The notes under the pieces: model-generated
What the model was told of the DNA's origin: nothing
What the model saw: the letters and a program-made list of their open reading frames with translations, nothing else
Database searches by the model: none
Shown: positions 1-64,000 of the stretch, in pieces
Layout of the letters: every line of letters starts with the position of its first letter
Position numbering within the stretch: position 1 is the stretch's first letter
Translations under genes and position numbers: made by a program
Assembly: GCA_021432635.1 (NCBI GenBank)
Contig: MU270028.1
Location: 1,178,323-1,242,322 of the forward strand
Reading direction: 5' to 3'
From: Thozetella sp. PMI_491
Taxonomy: Eukaryota; Ascomycota; Sordariomycetes; Chaetosphaeriales; Chaetosphaeriaceae
DNA: 64,000 nucleotides

Positions 1-51
1 AAATGCCTAAAGGGGAAGAACATTCCGAAGAACAGAGCTGCACTAGATTTA

Positions 52-223
52 TTAAGTCCATCGACCTATAATAGCTAAAGATGATAGGGTATTTGGATGC
101 TGTAGACCTAGGACGCGTCCCCTGGCCCGAGCACAAGCCTGCATCAATGCCAAAGCGTCTGCATGTCGACCTTGACTTTTCCAAGTGAAAGCCAGGTTGC
201 TCATGCTTATCAGCGTGTCGGGA
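52..223 (-). pseudogene. C-terminal TPR piece of the disrupted NLR gene
   Basis: Read on the minus strand, this piece encodes the usual end of a fungal NB-ARC/TPR protein: a TPR helix pair (SMSNLAFTWKSQGRHADAL), a final repeat with HPNTLSSLA, and a stop at 52-54. It has no start of its own and begins inside a TPR unit, at a CCC codon. The missing upstream part is found at 6841-9731 in the same orientation, and its last intact codons also end at CCC, so the two pieces meet in frame if the DNA between them is removed. I infer that this is the severed 3' end of that gene. Confidence 0.8.
220..223. repeat. Left copy of possible target-site duplication (GGGA)
   Basis: GGGA here and at 6841-6844 borders the AT-rich insertion. 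Both copies occupy the same position of the TPR repeat unit, as expected for a 3-4 bp duplication made on insertion. Four bases can match by chance, so this rests mainly on the exact in-frame continuity of the host gene. Confidence 0.5.
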
Positions 224-262
224 CGAGTTCTCAGAGCCCGCGTGACGCGGGCACTCGTTGAG
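224..262. repeat. GC-rich palindrome at the left end of the insertion
   Basis: An almost perfect dyad is centred on GCCCGCGTGACGCGGGC, with outer arms ACGAGT (223-228) and ACTCGT downstream. It is strikingly GC-rich next to an AT-rich core and lies exactly at the junction with the NLR gene, as expected of a transposon terminus or a subterminal transposase site. No second copy was seen at the right end. Confidence 0.5.
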
Positions 263-3200
263 AGTAATCAGTCTTTTTTTTTAATTATCTGTAAGTAAGA
301 CCTCTGGATACATAATATTGCAGGATGATTGTTCTCTTAGAGGAAGAAGAAGAAAGACATTGCGGATATCTCTAGCTTGAGACATTACGACGTAGAATTG
401 ACCGTGAGAAAACACCGGTTCTTGTAGATCTATCCCGATATATCCAAGCGATTAACCTTAAGCTTTGTTAATTGTTATAGCAAAGCAAAGGCGGAATGGA
501 AATTGAAACCAAGATATTATATAAGGGTAATTAGCAGGAGAGCTAAACAACTTGATTTTGGGGATGAATATAATTTCGCCTTTAAAATCGCCTGTTAAAA
601 TTCAAGCATAAACAACAGCCTTGCCAAGAGATATAATCACCAGCCGGGTACTATTATATAACCCACGTTTAGGAAAGAGGTTGTATAGTAGGATAACAGG
701 ACAGCTAATCTTTAACTCTAACTTTAAAGGAGGGATAGATAAGAAGTCTAAAGATGTTAAAAGCTCTGGTGATATCAGTGTATTAGCTTCCTTACTATTA
801 GGTTGCCTAGATTCCTTAATAGTATTAGTCGCTAAATAGGTATATATTTCTCTAGGTATCTATTGTATGATGTAGCTGTTGATATCTTTTACAGCTATAT
901 TTTTAACTGTTAAGATTAATCAATCGGCTAAGATGGTATAGTTATATAAAGCTTTTATAAGGATGTAAAATAGGTAGATCTTATCATATAGTTTAGGCAG
1001 TAAGAAGAAGCGGCTTATATTTAAAGATATTTAAATAATACTATAGAAGTCTAGATTATAAGTAATATTGTATAACTACTTAATATATTACTAATTTAGT
1101 AGCTTTAGAGCTATAACTCTTATATTTCTTTAGAGGTATTAGATAGAAATATAGTCCTATAGGTAAGATGTTTATATGTAGGAACTAATTAATTAAGCTC
1201 TACTTCTTATACATACCACTAGTAGGATTTAAGCGAAATCACCTCTAAATACTATAGGTATATCTCTAAATAAAGCATCTTAATTATAAATATCTTATAG
1301 TATTTAATTAATAGCTTTAAAGTAATACTTATATTATATAGGTATTTTATCCTAGATAATTAGCTTTATCTAATAAAAGAGTTTAGCTTTATTAGATAAT
1401 CTAGAGGCTAAATATATTAAGTCTTTTGCTAAGTTATTTACTAGTATTTTAAAGTAAAAATAGGCTGTTCTACTACCTGGTAGAAGGAGAGCTATAATTC
1501 TTAACGATGCTATATATAGTATAATATCGTCTTAAAAATAATAATATATAGTAAGGCCTTTATATAAAAATGTTTTACTATTATCTCTAGGCCCTTAGAT
1601 AAAGTAATAAGCTTTAAGAGGTTACTCATTAATTACTATGATAATTTCTTTAAGTATAATATACTAGTCGTTATTAAAAGCTAAGATAATACTACTTGCT
1701 GTTTACTCTTGCTTAAGTTTATTATATTAAAGCTTTTTATTAATAAGATTATTATTATAATATTTGCCTTAATTATACTAATAAGTTAGTAAGTTAAAAT
1801 CAGCTGCTTCTCTACCGTGATCCGCTAGAGTAGTTGTAATTATATAAAGGCTATAGTCTATCTATAGTTTAGCAAAGTCTAGTAATACTTTATAGTTCTT
1901 AGGTAGGCGTTAAGGTAAATCATTATAAAGTAATTGGTAGAAATATTTCTATAGAGCTAAAGGGTCTAAGATATCTCTATAAAGGAGATATAATATAAAG
2001 AGATTACAGAGGTACTAGCTAGTCTGTTATTAAGTTGCTTTATCAAAGCAAACGATCCAGTGTTTATTATCTTCTAAAAGACCAGCTGCTATATATACCT
2101 CTTTAAATATATCATAAGTAATACTGTCTATAGTTTATAGATTTTTATACGAAGTTACTCCTAGAATTATAGCTAGTAATAGTTATAAATACTATTTCTC
2201 CTTAGTTTATAGAGGTATATAAGTTATTTAGCTGATAGTAGATCCTATTTAACGTTTTTCCTATCTCTTTAATAATAGCTTAAATATATATTTTAATGGA
2301 AAGTCTATATATAATGTCTATTGATTATCTATATAAAGTTAATTATATTTAAAGAAGGTTATTAGTTATATATTACGATTTATAATGTGTTTAATATTAT
2401 TAGTTATAGTATCGTCTAAGAAATATATTACTTGCTTATAAGGAAGATATATAGGTAAAGAGATAATTAGTAGCTATTCCTTATACACTAGAAACTAGTA
2501 TAATCATATAATAACTTCTATAGGGCTAATATAGTAATATTATAGGTAAGTTTTAATTTTATCTATTACTACTACACTATATCTTTATATAGTGATTTTT
2601 ATTATTATAAGATCTAAACCTTTATATATATATTTAGTTATATATTTAATTATATAGATAGTAGAGTAGATTTTTATATTAATATAGGCATTATACTTTC
2701 TAGAAAGGTATAGGTTATATAGTACTACCCAGCGATTATCTACCTGAATTGTAAAGAGTCCTATTTGTTTTTCTATATAGTTATTTATATAGTACTATTA
2801 ATAAAGAGGATATCTATTCTCAAGTAATAGAGTAGTATTATTATATTCTTTAGGGTAGCCCTTAGAGCACTGTAATATACTATTAGTTCCTCTCTTTATA
2901 TAGGGCACTAAAGAATTAAAGTCGCTATAAAGGCTATAGATTATATAAGATAATACAATAACTCTTAAGATGTTATCTAGATCTTCCTTTAGAGTGGGTA
3001 ACTCTACTTTAATAACTTTATCTATTACATTAGGTTATTAGAGTTAAGTTTTAATTTCCTTACTTAAAAAGACTAAGATATACTAATAAGGAAGACTATA
3101 TTTTTAAAATTCTAATATCTATACGATTATATAAAAATAGCTAAATAAGCCCTATTTTATCTTATTAATTAAAACAGTACTCTTAAGCTAAAATACTCAG

Positions 3201-6200
3201 CCTATAATATCTAGTCAGTCCTAAGCAGTTTAGCTAGGTAGAAGATACTGTATAATCTTAGGCTAATAAGGATTATAAGTAAAGATAATAAAGAAGTCTA
3301 GTTTCTATATAACACATATAATAGCTATAACATTTTAGTAGCACTAATAGTAAAAATACTGTCTATTAATATGTCTAGCTAGTAAGATAACTCTATAACT
3401 AATACTTTCTATATCACTATCTCCACTTTTAATCTAATCTATTACTTAATTATATATATCTATATAAATCTTTGATTAGTTACAATAAAGCCAGCTTAGT
3501 AATATCTAATTAACTAAAGCCTATAGATCTATAACTAATTATTAGAAAAAATAGTTAAAAGTAAAGGAGATTAATATCTAAGTTAGACATAGATAAAGTA
3601 TATAAGCTAAATACTACTAAAGACTTAGCTTATCTTATTCTAATTTTTACTGATTTTATTTATAGAGCTATAAGCCCTAATAGAAACCTTGGTTACCCTT
3701 AGGAAAAATAAGTGGATATATAAGAGGTAAATATGCCATATATATAGAGTAAATACAATAGAATCCACTAACAGAGCCATCTCTACAACACTCTACTAGG
3801 ATAATATCTCTAGGTTAACTTCTTATATTATCTTTATATAGTATTAAAACAGCAACTTTATTAGCTATTAGTAGGTTCTCGCAACGTTGATCTGCCCTAT
3901 ACTTAACTACTAGTTATAGCTGTAGAGTAAGTATCACCTTTATCTCTATTAATAAAGCTATAAATCGTTCTTATACTATTATATAGATTTTAATAAAAGA
4001 GTTATACTAATTTAAGAAGTTTGAAAAGATAGTGATGAATTGTTTGTTAAGATATTTATTAGTATTGAGTTAGAGCTGAGTAGCTACTTTAGGATTATAG
4101 AAATAGGATAATATATATTACAGTTAAGCAAACGTTATGTCTTATATAGGTCTAGTAAGATAGTATAGAGTTCCTTAAATTTGAAAATCTAATGAACCTT
4201 ATATATTTAAAAGATAATGTGTTGTAGTTGTGTAGTATATAGAAGTAAATGTAAAGATATTATTATATTCTTGTATCTTTCTTCGGAAGGCTATGCCTTC
4301 CTTAGTTATACAGAGTAAGAAATTAATGAGGAACTATGGGAGTATAGAAAATAGTTTTAATATAATATTACCTTTTAAGTAATAGCTAGGAAAGATAGGT
4401 CTTATAAGTAGTAATCTCTATATAATAGTTAATCTTTTAATTTATACTAAATATAATAGGTTAACAAACTAGTATTTTTTCTTTTAACTAATATAAGGCA
4501 TTATAATAAGTATATTTCTTTTTTATTATACTATAATCATCGTATAAAATTATTAATAGGGTATTTAATAACACCTAAGTAGAAGGATTAGGTTTTACAA
4601 CTTAATCAGATAAAAGAGGATTTATATCTATAGCTAGATGTCTCTAAATGTTTCCTGCTTAGCTAATTTATATATGTTTATACCTTACACAGTAAGGTTT
4701 ACAGCTTTAAAAGTAACCTCCTCTAAGTCGATTAAATTAAAGACCTAAACAGTTTCTCTAATAATAATTATAATAGCAGTAATATTTAGTTATATTATTT
4801 TAAAGGTAAAAGAAGGCCTAGCTTCTTCTCTCTATATATAACTTCTTAATTATAAGCTCCTATTTTTAACTTCTAATTGTTTAGGTAATAATAACCTTAA
4901 CTAGAAAGTAATAGAATACTAATATATAGTATAGATATATATATGATTAAGCTAACCTAATAGCTATTTATTATAGTAGTAAGTATTGCTATACTAATAT
5001 ATATTTAAAGTTATAGAACTAATAGATAAAGCTAAAAAAAAGAGTTAAGTGTTATAACTAGAGAGAGTAAAGTAGGTATATAGGAATTATCCCTATTCGG
5101 AGATAATCACTATATTATTCCCTAAAACCTATAGAGTTAAGATTTAAAGATAAAATATCTGCCTCTTCTAACCTTTCCGCCTATCTAAAAATATTCCTTA
5201 TTATAGATCTTAGTATTTATAACACAATAATGCCTCTGATCTAAGCGCTAAACAAATATAATAGTGGGATTATAGGGTCTAAACTAGTAGTAATATTTTA
5301 TACTGATTTTATTTCTTACAAGATAATCCCTTTGGGTTGATGTTATATCTAGAATATAAACTTTAAAGCTAGAACGTTTTTAGCGTTTAATAGTCCCTTA
5401 TTTATTATTAACTTATACTAAGGACTTCTAAGCCTAAAGAATAGTAAAACAGATAGAATACCACTAATTCTTTCTACTTTTACTACTAATACTAAGATAG
5501 AGATATTATAAGATAACTAAGAAGGAAATTAGTTTGTTGTGACAGTAAGAGTCTATCCTAGCTTGCTTAGTTTTAAAGGTGTTAATAAGGACAACTTAGA
5601 AGATAACTCTAATAAAAGAACTGTTAACTATATAGTAGCACTCCCCTGTGATAATAGTATTATACTATATATATATCTTTAGCTTTATTACTTAATTATA
5701 TTAATACCTTCTAGAATTTATCCTTGTTACCTTAAGGATATAGACAATAGCTTACTATAACCACTTAAGCCAGGGCAAGCCTCTTTTACTGGACTAGTTA
5801 ACCTTAAAACCTATTATATAAATCCAGATATCTAGACTAAGTAACTACGACATATATTAGTATTTGTCAAGCTAGGTTTATATATCATTCCTAAAGGTAA
5901 TAGGTCACTATATAAAGGTGTCTATATCTTTTACATATTACTCCTTTTCCCTATAGATTAATAACTATAAAGTGTAATATTAAATTAGATAAAGACTGTA
6001 AAAATACCTTTCTACAAAGGATCTTGGATTTTATATACCAGCTAAGTGCTGGGTATTTTAAACCAAGACTTATTACAGGATACAGTCGCTACTGCTTTAC
6101 CAGTCAAAATCCCTGTTATCGTCACTAATAATTAGGAATTTATCCGCCAAGCATCTCTTACTACCACAACGTAAAGCAGCACGATAAAAGAACCGGCCAC

Positions 6201-57870: not shown

Positions 57871-58563
57871 GTAGCGGCAGTTGAATTTGAGCTCTTGTCC
57901 ACGTATTGCGTGAGCAGGTTGGGTAAGGACAGGACTCTGGAGTGATGCACTTGGGTCTCATTGCGGCAGGGAGTCGACGATGACAAATCGCGAGTAAAAG
58001 AGAAGCGACACAAAATAAGCCTTAATCGACATATGATTTTATTGTAAGTCAACTGGAGCTGGTCCATGCCGCGATGACGCTTAACGGGCATTAGTAAGGG
58101 GGGAAGTGGCTCTAGGCAAAGAAATTCGGTTGTCTAGCGCCAATGCTCTAAAGGCTAAGAGCCAATGAAAAATAGCTGGCGCACTATCACCAAGTTGGAA
58201 ATACGTTGTTTCCTGACTGGGAAAAGCGTTGCTCCCCAACCGGAAAGACGATCCTTCCCTTGAAGGAACCACGTTTCTTCCCGAACTGGTACTACGTTTT
58301 CTCCTGAATTAGATTCTAAAATTTGTATGCCATTACTCATCTATATTTCAAGCCGCCAAAATGCACGATATCTTCTCTGCATCTATATCATTGATTGATC
58401 ATCACATCTTAGCTGAGCTTCGTTTCCAGTGAGTATAAAGCCACAGTGCTGAAGACGTCAAGATGCATATTCCTTCAACGCCAGTCTTGCCATTCGACAA
58501 GGCTTCAGAAACGAGAGAAGAGATCCAACACCCTAGCTTTCAAAATATCCAGAAACTCTCCCC
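57871..58563. promoter_or_regulatory. Divergent promoter between cluster regulator and OYE gene
   Basis: 693 bp between start codons facing away from each other. It carries the five 23-bp repeats at 58191-58305. Confidence 0.6.
58191..58305. repeat. Five tandem degenerate 23-bp repeats with a dyad
   Basis: On the minus strand the units have the consensus GGGAAGAAACGTnTTTCC plus five variable bases. Each contains GGAA and TTCC arms around an ACGT-like core. All five are exactly 23 bp, which is not a multiple of three, so this is not a coding repeat. Dyad arms and regular spacing suggest an array of protein-binding sites. Confidence 0.8.
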
Positions 58564-59670
58564 ATGGCGGAATCTCGTCTTTTCAAGCCTTTGAAGATAG
58601 GCAACATCGAGGTGAAGCACCGGCTCGCCATGTCTCCAATGACCCGCCTCCGCGCTACTGAAGACCGAATCCCGACGCCTATGATGAAGGAGTACTACAG
58701 TCAGCGGGCTTCTGTCCCAGGAACATTGATTCTCACCGAGGGGACCTTCATCTCGTCCGCCTGTGGCGGCTTCCCCAATGGACCAGGAATTTGGAGCAAC
58801 GAGCAAGTCAAAGCTTGGCGCGAAATTACCGACGAGGTCCACCGCAAAGGATGTTACATCTTCTGCCAGCTATTTGGCATGGGCCGGGCCGCAACTGCCG
58901 ATGTCTCCGAAAAGGAAGGATTTCCCATTTTAGGGCCAAGTGCAATTGCATTCGAAGGCGGTGCGATGCCGCGGGAGATGACGATCGAAGAGATCAAGCA
59001 AGTTGTTCGAGATTTTGCGCACGCTGCAAAGAATGCCATCCTGGCAGGATTCGATGGGATTGAGTGCCACGTCGCAAATGGCTATCTGCTTGATCAATTC
59101 ATACAAGACGTCAGCAATCAACGCACTGACGAGTATGGAGGGAGCATTGAGGGCCGATCTCGCCTCGTCAAGGAGGTGATTGAGGCACTTGTTGAGGCAA
59201 TCGGTGCAGACCGTGTGGGACTGCGCTTGAGTCCCTGGAGCACCTTCCAAGGGATGAGAATGGCAGACCCCATCCCGCAACATGTGGACGTCATCAAAAT
59301 CGCTCGTCAAGCGAATCTTGCGTACCTTCACCTGGTTGAGTCACGAATTGCCGGCGCAAATGATTACAATAAATACGGTGACAGTGACCGGTTGGACTTC
59401 GCCTATGAACTCTGGGACCGGCCGTTGCTCATTGCTGGAGGCTATACTCCGGAAGAGGCAGCTAGGCTGGTCAACGTAGAGCGCCCGGAGAAGGATATCG
59501 TGGTCATGATTGGTCGGTACTTCATTTCAAACCCGGATCTAGTCTACCGCATCAAGCAGGGTATAAAGCTGAGTGCGTACAACCGCGAGACGTTTTATAC
59601 CAAGCAGTCATCTCTTGGCTACCTAGATTACCCGTTCAGCAAGGAATACCTGGCAAGCGTGAGCGCCTAG
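58564..59670 (+). CDS. Old Yellow Enzyme family FMN-dependent ene-reductase
   Basis: Single exon, 368 residues, full length. FMN barrel start LFKPLKIGNIEVKHRLAMSP, the substrate pair H169/N172 and proton donor Y174 in ECHVANGYLLDQF, then SNQRTDEYGGSIEGR and the phosphate-binding end IGRYFISNPDL. All catalytic residues of classical OYEs are present, so it should reduce activated C=C bonds with NADPH. In fungal clusters such enzymes (for example EasA in ergot alkaloid synthesis) often pair with a BBE-like flavoprotein, as here. The 5' region carries the 23-bp repeat array. Confidence 0.92.
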   Translation: MAESRLFKPLKIGNIEVKHRLAMSPMTRLRATEDRIPTPMMKEYYSQRASVPGTLILTEGTFISSACGGFPNGPGIWSNEQVKAWREITDEVHRKGCYIFCQLFGMGRAATADVSEKEGFPILGPSAIAFEGGAMPREMTIEEIKQVVRDFAHAAKNAILAGFDGIECHVANGYLLDQFIQDVSNQRTDEYGGSIEGRSRLVKEVIEALVEAIGADRVGLRLSPWSTFQGMRMADPIPQHVDVIKIARQANLAYLHLVESRIAGANDYNKYGDSDRLDFAYELWDRPLLIAGGYTPEEAARLVNVERPEKDIVVMIGRYFISNPDLVYRIKQGIKLSAYNRETFYTKQSSLGYLDYPFSKEYLASVSA

Positions 59671-59815: not shown

Positions 59816-61815
59816 TTATGCCCCATCGCCTTCAGCACTTAAGACTCGGCACAGCTTACCGTTTTGAGACCCAGGATAGTCATCTTCCGTTCTCACCTCC
59901 CACGCTTCACTCCCGACTGTAGTCGGTGCCCAGAACAGGCCCCACGGGTCCCTTTGCCGTTTAATCCCCAGAAGTTTCCCGTACAGGTCGCCATAGAAAC
60001 TCTGCTGCCAGTTCGGCTCCCCAGGGTCTCCCTCGTTCATATACGCTCCGGAACCTGGAGTGACTGCCCTCCACAAATCCAGGTATTTCTTTGCTTTGGC
60101 ATCATTCTCCCTGACCTGTTCGGCCGTCAGACCCACTGCTTGCACCTCCATGAGCGCTGCGTGCATAGCGGTCTTGCGCCATGCTGGATTTACCGCACTA
60201 AAGCGACCTGGCCAGCCGGCTACCGTCTCGTCGGGCCGGTACTGCAGGTTGTGGAAGTTGTAGCCCGCCTCGACGCCAGGGCGGATGGCTGCCATGGTGT
60301 CGTTGAACAGCTGGTCGTCCTCCCAATTGGCACGAGGAAATAGGCGGCTATAGTAGCGCGTATTGATGATGTTATCGACGGGCGGGAGACGGAACGTGCT
60401 AGTGTAGGGCATTGATTGAAGGGGCCCTGGATTTGTGAGATTGATGCCCACGGCTCGGAGCTTGTCGTACATCGGTTGCATAAGAGCATACACTTCTTCT
60501 GGGGTCTTTTCTGGGACAGCGTAGGTTGAGGTGAGAGTGAAGCTATTGTTTCCAAGCGGATAGATGTAGCCAAACCCGAATCCACCAGCATCAACTACAT
60601 TGATTCCATGCCTGTAGTAGATTTTAGCAGCTTCCCAGAAAGTTGTAGTAGTATTGATGATCCCAGGTGCAAGTGCCGATGTCCCGTTGATAACTGTCAA
60701 ATTAAAAGCCGACGCCGTAAAGTTGATAGATGGGAAGGCCTTCATAACCACGGATGTCACAACGCCGTAGGTTCCTAAAGGATTGACCTATTAGTACGTA
60801 TCTTCGGCTTGCGCCGTTTTAATGCTTACCACCACCACCACCACGGAGAGCATAGAATAAATCGCTGTTCGTATAAGGGTCGGCCGTGACAAACCTTCCG
60901 TCGGCAGTCACGACATTGATTGACAGCCCTTGGTCAGACCCCAGTCCGTAGTGTGACGCCAGAATGCCATGCCCACCGGAACCAAACCATCCGCCATTGG
61001 CGCCCACTGTAGCACCCCCTGGGGCGACCACAGAGATGTTATGAAGTACCATGTACTGAAACAACTCCCATCCTTCAAGTCCGGAACCATAGCGTACCGC
61101 CATTCCACTGTACTCTCCTATGATATAGTTTGGTAGAAACTCGAAGTCTTTTAGGTGATGAGTCCAGATGCTCAAAGACCCAGCGCCGACCGATCTGCCG
61201 CCGAAATCATGCCCTGTATTCGTAATAAACAGTTAGCAGTGCCCCTCTGTAGACCTAAGGATTATATACTTATTTTATCACAAGGCGGAGATTTCGATTC
61301 CGGGCAAAGTTGACTGCAGCTTGTACATGCTTGACTGTCGTGGCGTTCACCACGTAGACGGGAAACCCTCCTTGTGTACAGTTCCCTGTCGTCTTTAGCT
61401 CAGCCATGCAGGTACCGCCTTCAGGCCATGGTGTGAGAGCAGTCAGGGGGTCGTCAAGGTAGTAGTGTGTGGTCCCAGCAACTTTGACCAGGTAGTCGCA
61501 CTGAGCAGCATCGTAATTTGGCCCAGTATAACATACTGAAGAGACCGGAGTCGGCTTCAACAAAGCACCATCGAGAGTTGCGTTGAATTGGCTCCAGACT
61601 GTCTCGGAGGGCCAGTCTGCCGATCCAGGAAAGGCTCGACATTCTGGACCCTTGCTCTGGTATTTTGCAGCAGTAACATCGCCAAAACTGACCGCGGAAA
61701 AGTCATCGATATCGGCGGCCGTAAGCTGAACATTTTCGAATGGGAAGGCGAATCCAAAAGCTGTCTTGGGCAGCGCCACGCCCGTAATGATAACTAGCAA
61801 GAACGTGGAATGCAT
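59816..61815 (-). CDS. Secreted BBE-like FAD-linked oxidoreductase
   Basis: Three exons: 61274-61815, 60830-61221 and 59816-60774; 630 residues. The signal peptide is HSTFLLVIITGVALPKTAFG. The FAD-binding PCMH domain follows: FPVYVVNATTVKHVQAAV, LRLVIKNTGHDFGGRS (its His is the usual covalent flavin site), APGGATVGANGGWFGSGGHG and LFYALRGGGGGTYGVVTS. The C-terminal berberine-like segment ends RDPWGLFWAPTTVG. The first intron has AT-AC ends (see separate entry); the second is GT-AG, 55 nt. Expected role: oxidation or oxidative cyclisation of a metabolite in a secretory compartment. Convergent with the OYE gene, 145 bp between stops. Confidence 0.88.
61222..61273 (-). other. AT-AC intron in the BBE-like gene
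   Basis: On the minus strand the 52-nt segment begins ATAAGT and ends TTATTAC, with TGCTAAC shortly before the end. Its removal joins LRLVIK to NTGHDFGGRS exactly. No GT-AG choice restores this conserved block: the nearby GT (61269-61268) lies after an in-frame TAA, and the only nearby AG acceptor gives the wrong phase and loses two conserved residues. Confidence 0.72.
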
Positions 61816-62911: not shown

Positions 62912-63847
62912 CTAAATCCACACTTTATCATCTGCCCTATTTTTCTCAAGGTGACGGCGGATCTGACCGTAATCCTTGCAAACGTGCTTAGCATCCCAGC
63001 CATCACTCCCCGGGGAGTTTCTATCGGGGAATGTCGTCTGTCTTCCCTCCAGCGTCATGTCTCCGCAGCACAGAATGCTTTGACGAAGATACTCAAAGCA
63101 GTGTCGGGAGTGCCACCCGGCCGACTCTAGAATCCCATCTCCTGTCCCATTCGACATCATCATGGATGCGAAGAACTCCTCTAGTTTGTACTATTCGAAG
63201 CATGAGACAGGTTCTTTACGATAAATTGGGAGTTGATCTCACAAGGCAATGTAGCTGGTGGGTTACAGAAGTGGTGAAAACAGCACCATCGTACTCCGGC
63301 AGTGGCGTGGGAAGGTTGTCGTAGTTTTCTGAGTCCGCAATTCGAACATATCCTAAGCCCTCTTCAACAACCTCACAGTTATCAGCATTGTTTTCACAGT
63401 TCTTTCGTAATATAATCGTGAATTCTCACTCGGTACTAGGTTGAGCCAGTTATTTCGAACTCTGGTTGTAAACCATTCCGCCGGGTCATCTGGAGTAAAC
63501 GATAGGTCGGGAGCGAAAGATTTAATTCGGCGATTAACTAGATGATCATGGTTCTCGATTAATGTCTAAAGCCTCCCAGTCTGTCAGGCTTACTTACTCG
63601 CAGGGGCAAAGCCCGTGATGTCCCCGGCGAGTTCTAATTGAGGTCGTTTGTTCGTATAAACCGGCTGAATAATAATAATTAATAGAATAGACAATAATAA
63701 TGCGATATTGATTCCATGTCCTAGAAATGAAACCTTGCGAACTCCGTAGCTTCTCCTTCGCCATGCGCCGTCTTCGATAGGGTTACTTTGAGCAGACCGT
63801 TCTTCGGCTAGCATCAATGGTTCGTTATCTTCGGCTGAGTTATTCAT
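62912..63847 (-). CDS. UstYa-like (DUF3328) oxidase family protein
   Basis: Four exons: 63598-63847, 63430-63537, 63243-63361 and 62912-63190; introns 60, 68 and 52 nt; 251 residues. A single membrane helix (INIALLLSILLIIIIQPVY) follows a charged N terminus. Then come SFAPDLSFTPDDPAEWF and the two family-defining HxxHC motifs: HQLHC at the end of exon 3 and HSRHC in exon 4 (followed by FEYLRQSILCCGD), then DGWDAKHVCKDYGQI. UstYa proteins catalyse oxidative cyclisation or chlorination/dehydrogenation in fungal RiPP and other pathways. The second acceptor is an unusual GAAG. The frame is open to the window edge; the ATG at 63847 is the best start. Confidence 0.87.
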
Positions 63848-64000
63848 GAATGAATTTCGCCCGGTGAAGATCATAACTACCAAAAGAATCGTATATGTAG
63901 AATCATACACGCCTGGACTGAGGCAGCGAAGCGCGTAGTCTTGAGGTTGAATGGTAATACTAACTATTGTTTGAAGTGACGGGACTTGGCAGTCCACCAC

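Follow-up and report, generated by a model that had tools for sequence, protein, structure and literature searches.

The predicted oxidase gene and its product

A flavin oxidase gene in the 64,000-nucleotide stretch of Thozetella sp. PMI_491 DNA analysed here (the window) appears to be interrupted by an intron whose first two letters are AT and whose last two are AC. This raises the question of whether these termini mark the true intron, how they arose, and which spliceosome would remove it. The gene lies on the minus strand at 61815-59816 and has three exons (542, 392, and 959 nt). Its reading frame is intact, with a product of 630 amino acids, once the segments 61273-61222 (AT-AC) and 60829-60775 (GT-AG) are both spliced out. 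The features are as follows:

61274..61815, minus strand: exon 1, with the ATG at 61815-61813, ending in ...CTT GTG ATA AA
61222..61273, minus strand: AT-AC intron 1, 52 nt, phase 2, ATAAGT...TGCTAAC...TTATTAC
61268..61273, minus strand: 5' splice site ATAAGT, read from the sequence
61232..61238, minus strand: branch site TGCTAAC, whose presumed branch A is followed by 11 nt of intron
61222..61228, minus strand: 3' splice site TTATTAC, read from the sequence
60830..61221, minus strand: exon 2, starting with G AAT ACA GGG CAT GAT (NTGHDFGG)
60775..60829, minus strand: intron 2, canonical GTAAGC...TTTAG, 55 nt
59816..60774, minus strand: exon 3, carrying the BBE domain and the stop

The Pfam analysis of the spliced protein found the FAD_binding_4 domain at 56.3 bits (cut-off 26.4) and the BBE domain at 34.5 bits (cut-off 20.6), and the closest solved structure was that of MtVAO615 (6f72). 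These matches agree with the earlier note on this DNA, which had named a BBE-like oxidase, and the predicted product of the gene is a flavin oxidase of the BBE/VAO type.

The oxidase gene is adjoined on one side by an Oxidored_FMN protein at 58537-59667 and on the other by a UstYa-like stretch on the minus strand at 62912-63190 (PF11807, 45.9 bits, cut-off 25). The pieces neighbouring the UstYa-like stretch, up to position 64000, gave no Pfam match. HET-domain and Zn(II)2Cys6/Fungal_trans proteins are also encoded within the window; they are characteristic of filamentous fungi and point most probably to an ascomycete. The oxidase, the UstYa-like stretch, and the Oxidored_FMN protein may together belong to a secondary-metabolite cluster.

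The boundary of the AT-AC intron

On the minus strand, the letters run from exon 1 (...GTGATAAA) through the intron (ATAAGTATATAATCCTTAGGTCTACAGAGGGGCACTGCTAACTGTTTATTAC) into exon 2 (GAATACAGGGCATGAT...), and the predicted mRNA across the 61274/61221 junction reads ...GTGATAAAGAATACAGGG... When intron 1 is retained, the frame continues as ATA AAA TAA and meets an immediate in-frame stop.

For the examination of other boundaries, the GT-AG, GC-AG, AT-AC, AT-AG, and GT-AC splice pairs were enumerated with donors at about 61375-61196 and introns of at least 20 nt. Among the pairs enumerated in this stretch, the 61273/61222 pair alone rebuilt the block VIKNTGHDFGG. The earlier note had claimed that the excision of this segment restores the block, and the coordinates, splice ends, and branch site that it gave proved exact in both letters and positions. 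Every stop-free alternative pair in the scanned stretch lost conserved residues. All stop-free GT-AG alternatives deleted NTGHDFGG, and the few GT-AC or AT-AC alternatives that retained NTGHD lost or altered the residues preceding it. A stwintron was also considered and set aside, as 52 nt would be too short for a nested intron. The sequence, the frame, and the intron site of the paralogues described below all place the AT...AC termini at the true intron position.

Paralogues carry a GT-AG intron at the same site

The spliced protein was used to search the 72.3-Mb, 157-contig genome for paralogues. In the four closest, the same codon is interrupted in the same phase by an intron, with GT...AG ends in all four:

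C19: GTAAGC..CGTAG
C5: GTGGGC..CTCAG
C88: GTAGGT..AATAG
C67: GTATGT..ATCAG

Full gene models among these intron-bearing paralogues were built for C19 and C5 only. Meanwhile, C38, C65, and C1 have no intron at this site and read VIK/VIR-NTGHD straight through. Since the intron-bearing paralogues share the codon and phase and the intronless ones read through the block, the boundary of the intron is fixed independently.

In a ten-row tree, the target gene grouped with C19 and C5 (97/99) within a five-member intron-bearing clade (100/99), inside which the branching order of C88 and C67 was not resolved. The terminal branch of the target (0.22 vs 0.30 and 0.24 for its sisters C19 and C5) showed no acceleration. 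Because the target is nested inside a clade of GT-AG paralogues, AT-AC is the derived state. It requires a change of the first base from G to A and of the last base from G to C. A paired change of this kind had been proposed from known AT-AC introns handled by the major spliceosome; the GT-AG ends at the same site in the four paralogues support the proposal and add a direction to it. The comparison of terminal dinucleotides had been suggested for orthologues and was made here with paralogues in their place. Among the contigs of the genome collection scanned for relatives, two bacterial ones only were found (L043 and L044; 31% and 33% identity), and the scan of the viral-contig collection found none.

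The paralogues also differ at the exon 2 position that corresponds to the second FAD-linking Cys (VAPGGxTVG). This position is occupied by G in the target, C19, C5, and C67; C38 and C12 likewise have no Cys there, and the Cys is kept in C88 (GCPTVG) and C65 (ECPTVG). C36 and C1 gave no match to the pattern used for this residue. We take the His and Cys residues in question to have a flavin-linking role in BBE-like oxidases, and the G in place of the second Cys suggests a single covalent FAD link in the target, via His.

Splice site recognition and the spliceosomal RNAs of the genome

The 5' splice site of the target intron is of the U2 type, with G at +5 and with complementarity to U1. The U1 duplex at this site amounted to -5.1 kcal/mol over positions +2 to +8 (UAAGUAU), which falls within the range of the four paralogue 5' sites (-3.8 to -5.7 kcal/mol); with +1 set to G, the value for the target site was -8.2 kcal/mol. 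The lost +1 pair is partly offset because positions +6 to +8 pair with U1.

The genome-wide searches with the Rfam models, made without a U12-positive fungal control, found no U12, U11, or U4atac over the cut-off and no U6atac over its cut-off of 33 (best match 18.9 bits, E 0.56). U6, which served as the control for these searches, gave four matches over the cut-off. Three U1 candidates (L045-L047) scored 45-48 bits, below the cut-off of 69.5, yet the 5' ends of all three are standard (ATACTTACCTTG, with ACUUACC kept), and the U1 sequences of this fungus seem to be scored too low by the Rfam model. As U1 itself falls below the cut-off and a U12-positive fungal control was lacking, the negative results for the minor snRNAs are not absolute. 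A search for PDCD7 gave no match in any genome searched and therefore carries no weight for this one. The negative results for the minor snRNAs agree with a report that U12 splicing is missing from Ascomycota (PMC2846911). The earlier note had favoured a U2-type intron and advised a check for U11/U12 components. The U2-type 5' site, the GT-AG paralogues, and the outcome of this check, with no minor snRNA over the cut-off, all speak for its reading.

Occurrence of the intron motif in the window and in the genome

The motif ATAAGTN{22,52}YRCTAACN{3,18}YAC, which represents one form of the 5' site and branch site, gave three rows in the window vs 0.03 expected by shuffling. Two of the three are the target intron with two AC ends, and the third lies in AT-rich DNA. 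Genome-wide, the motif returned 66 rows and its reversed control 46, and nearly identical copies of repeats account for several of the 66. By itself, then, a match is weak evidence for an AT-AC intron. The canonical GTAAGT...YAG pattern had one match in the window. Positions 1-6000 of the window are AT-rich and RIP-like (24-31% GC vs 47-61% in the other 2-kb bins), and a chance ATAAGT...CTAAC...AC match lies inside them at 3708-3791.

The loci examined (L048-L102) cover 59 of the 66 rows; those outside (C101, C143, and C146, two rows each, and C147:1190) look AT-rich. From L048-L097, 59 distinct splice choices were scored (40 of them listed), and the target had the best two-sided open frame among them; the choices from L098-L102 were scored too. 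Ten candidates besides the target, mostly top-scoring ones, were read in translation and judged by eye, none of them against Pfam, and no second convincing AT-AC intron was found among these ten. The similar-scoring L079, L058, L056, L084, and L087 lie outside the ten.

By eye, in the protein frames, L048 (C2:264497) and L076 (C21:182816) resemble GT-AG introns whose start lies 4 bases further on, after AA, with GTAGCG and GTAAGG, respectively. Matches of this type are a trap for pattern-only scans. The frame of L080 continues without an intron, L073 joins an apparently wrong upstream frame, and L068 could also be read with GT-AG ends. On the opposite strand, L062 is overlapped by a reading frame that looks like that of an adenylosuccinate lyase. 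L071, L082, L064, and L097 have fewer than 40 open codons on one side.

Selection on the oxidase gene

A three-taxon codon model was used for the estimation of dN/dS over 621 codons and over the 442 codons after the intron. The omega on the target branch was 0.03. Forcing the target omega to 1 was worse than a single omega by 13.5 lnL units over the 621 codons and by 9.8 lnL units over the 442 codons after the intron. It should be noted that the exon-1 run reached its bounds and that the after-intron run assigned the short C5 branch an odd omega of 0.59. Since dS is saturated and the signal of selection may predate the change of the splice sites, dN/dS is of limited value here, and a recent lesion is possible.

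Alternative explanations

In the main rival reading, the two end changes belong to a recent loss-of-function allele, in which splicing is blocked or mostly blocked and the gene, otherwise intact, is dead or dying. With dS saturated, no trace would be expected of a young lesion; changes of the G>A type are common, and the window contains an AT-rich, RIP-like stretch, though away from the oxidase gene. We nevertheless regard such an allele as unlikely, since the two changes fall exactly on both end bases and lead to the sole pair known to compensate. By our own estimate, which counts 210 nonsense and 24 splice-dinucleotide routes at equal rates and ignores indels, two random disabling substitutions would give such a pair about 7 times in 100,000. 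The intact remainder of the reading frame and the target branch, which is not accelerated, also speak against a dying gene. This specific pair of end changes is a stronger argument for a live gene than the codon model.

In-frame GT-AG pairs exist on paper, and the two genomic matches that by eye resemble GT-AG introns starting 4 bases later give some reason to look for a canonical junction elsewhere in the gene. The use of such a junction is very improbable, however, as every GT-AG pair enumerated deletes NTGHDFGG, the internal GTATAT donor comes after the in-frame TAA, the ACAG acceptor breaks the frame with nearby donors, and the paralogues place the boundary at the 61273/61222 codon. The AT-AC ends would also suit a U12-type intron removed by the minor spliceosome, but this is extremely unlikely given the 5' site (ATAAGT vs ATATCC) and the branch site (TGCTAAC vs CCTTAAC; consensuses as quoted in PMC3033335), the U2-type ends of the paralogous introns, and the genome search, in which, with no U12-positive fungal control, no minor snRNA scored over the cut-off. 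As for an assembly or sequencing error at both intron ends, the sequence comes from a single assembly, but two independent substitutions exactly at functional bases would be needed, and the reading frame around the intron is clean, so that such an error is hardly credible.

Proposed splicing of the intron

We consider it highly probable that the segment is a U2-type AT-AC (AT-AC II) intron, formerly GT-AG, which the major spliceosome probably still removes. An ancestral GT-AG intron common to the clade of paralogous oxidases would have changed in the target gene at its first base (G>A) and last base (G>C). U1, and then U6, may recognise UAAGUAU without the +1 pair, and the strong branch site TGCTAAC would be used. 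In the second step, the terminal A and C would substitute for the usual interaction between the first and the last G. In a mutated yeast intron, AT-AC was the most efficient pair after GT-AG (PMC6726248, citing Parker and Siliciano 1993), and a natural AT-AC protointron is reported there to be spliced in yeast, a species without the U12 spliceosome (PMC6726248). Both the splicing of the target intron and its efficiency are inferred.

It is also conceivable, though rather unlikely, that the AT-AC ends are maintained as a brake that works through slow splicing, and that the intron reached this state by direct conversion from GT-AG in a lineage without the minor spliceosome. The enzyme would then be made only under efficient splicing, because retention halts translation just before the flavin-site block.

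Comparison with known AT-AC introns

The U2-type AT-AC intron proposed here has several known counterparts. SCN4A intron 21, a U2-dependent sodium-channel AT-AC intron, likewise has AT-AC ends and G at +5 and needs the major spliceosome (PMC2831892). For the sodium-channel introns, the authors proposed an origin from U12-type AT-AC introns, whereas the paralogues point to a direct origin from GT-AG for the target, whose genome has no minor snRNA over the cut-off. The same work derives the existing U2-type AT-AC introns from U12-type ones through a rare route and regards them as trapped, since a switch of the ends of a U2-type intron would require simultaneous changes at both (PMC2831892). In the target intron, both ends appear to have switched, as the sister genes in the same genome point to a GT-AG ancestor.

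AT-AC introns are also reported in C. elegans, though this species seems to lack U11, U12, and U4atac, and the authors suspect that at least 42 of the 59 are real (PMC3033335). These are introns of an animal and come from transcript alignments, whereas the target is known here from genomic sequence alone. The yeast SUT635 AT-AC protointron and the AT-AC mutants indicate that the major spliceosome copes without U12 (PMC6726248), but the yeast cases are noncoding or engineered, and the target intron lies inside a conserved protein-coding block.

In fungi, AT-AC accounts for 0.019% of the annotated splice-site pairs (PMC7072748). The RNA-seq of Trichoderma longibrachiatum gave AT-AC in 69 of 14305 junctions (PMC4324775), and AT-AC is among the non-canonical sites listed for Fusarium graminearum (PMC3577648). 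Unlike the present analysis, the excerpts of these two reports contain no paralogue comparison that gives a direction of change (PMC4324775, PMC3577648). Our literature searches, limited to openly licensed papers, found no description of the target intron.

U2-type AT-AC introns are a known, rare kind, and the added value of this case is the paralogue comparison, which points to a GT-AG ancestor. The target intron would be a natural counterpart of the yeast experiment with the first and last nucleotides. An annotation pipeline that rejects AT-AC introns would probably shorten the predicted gene or flag it as broken.
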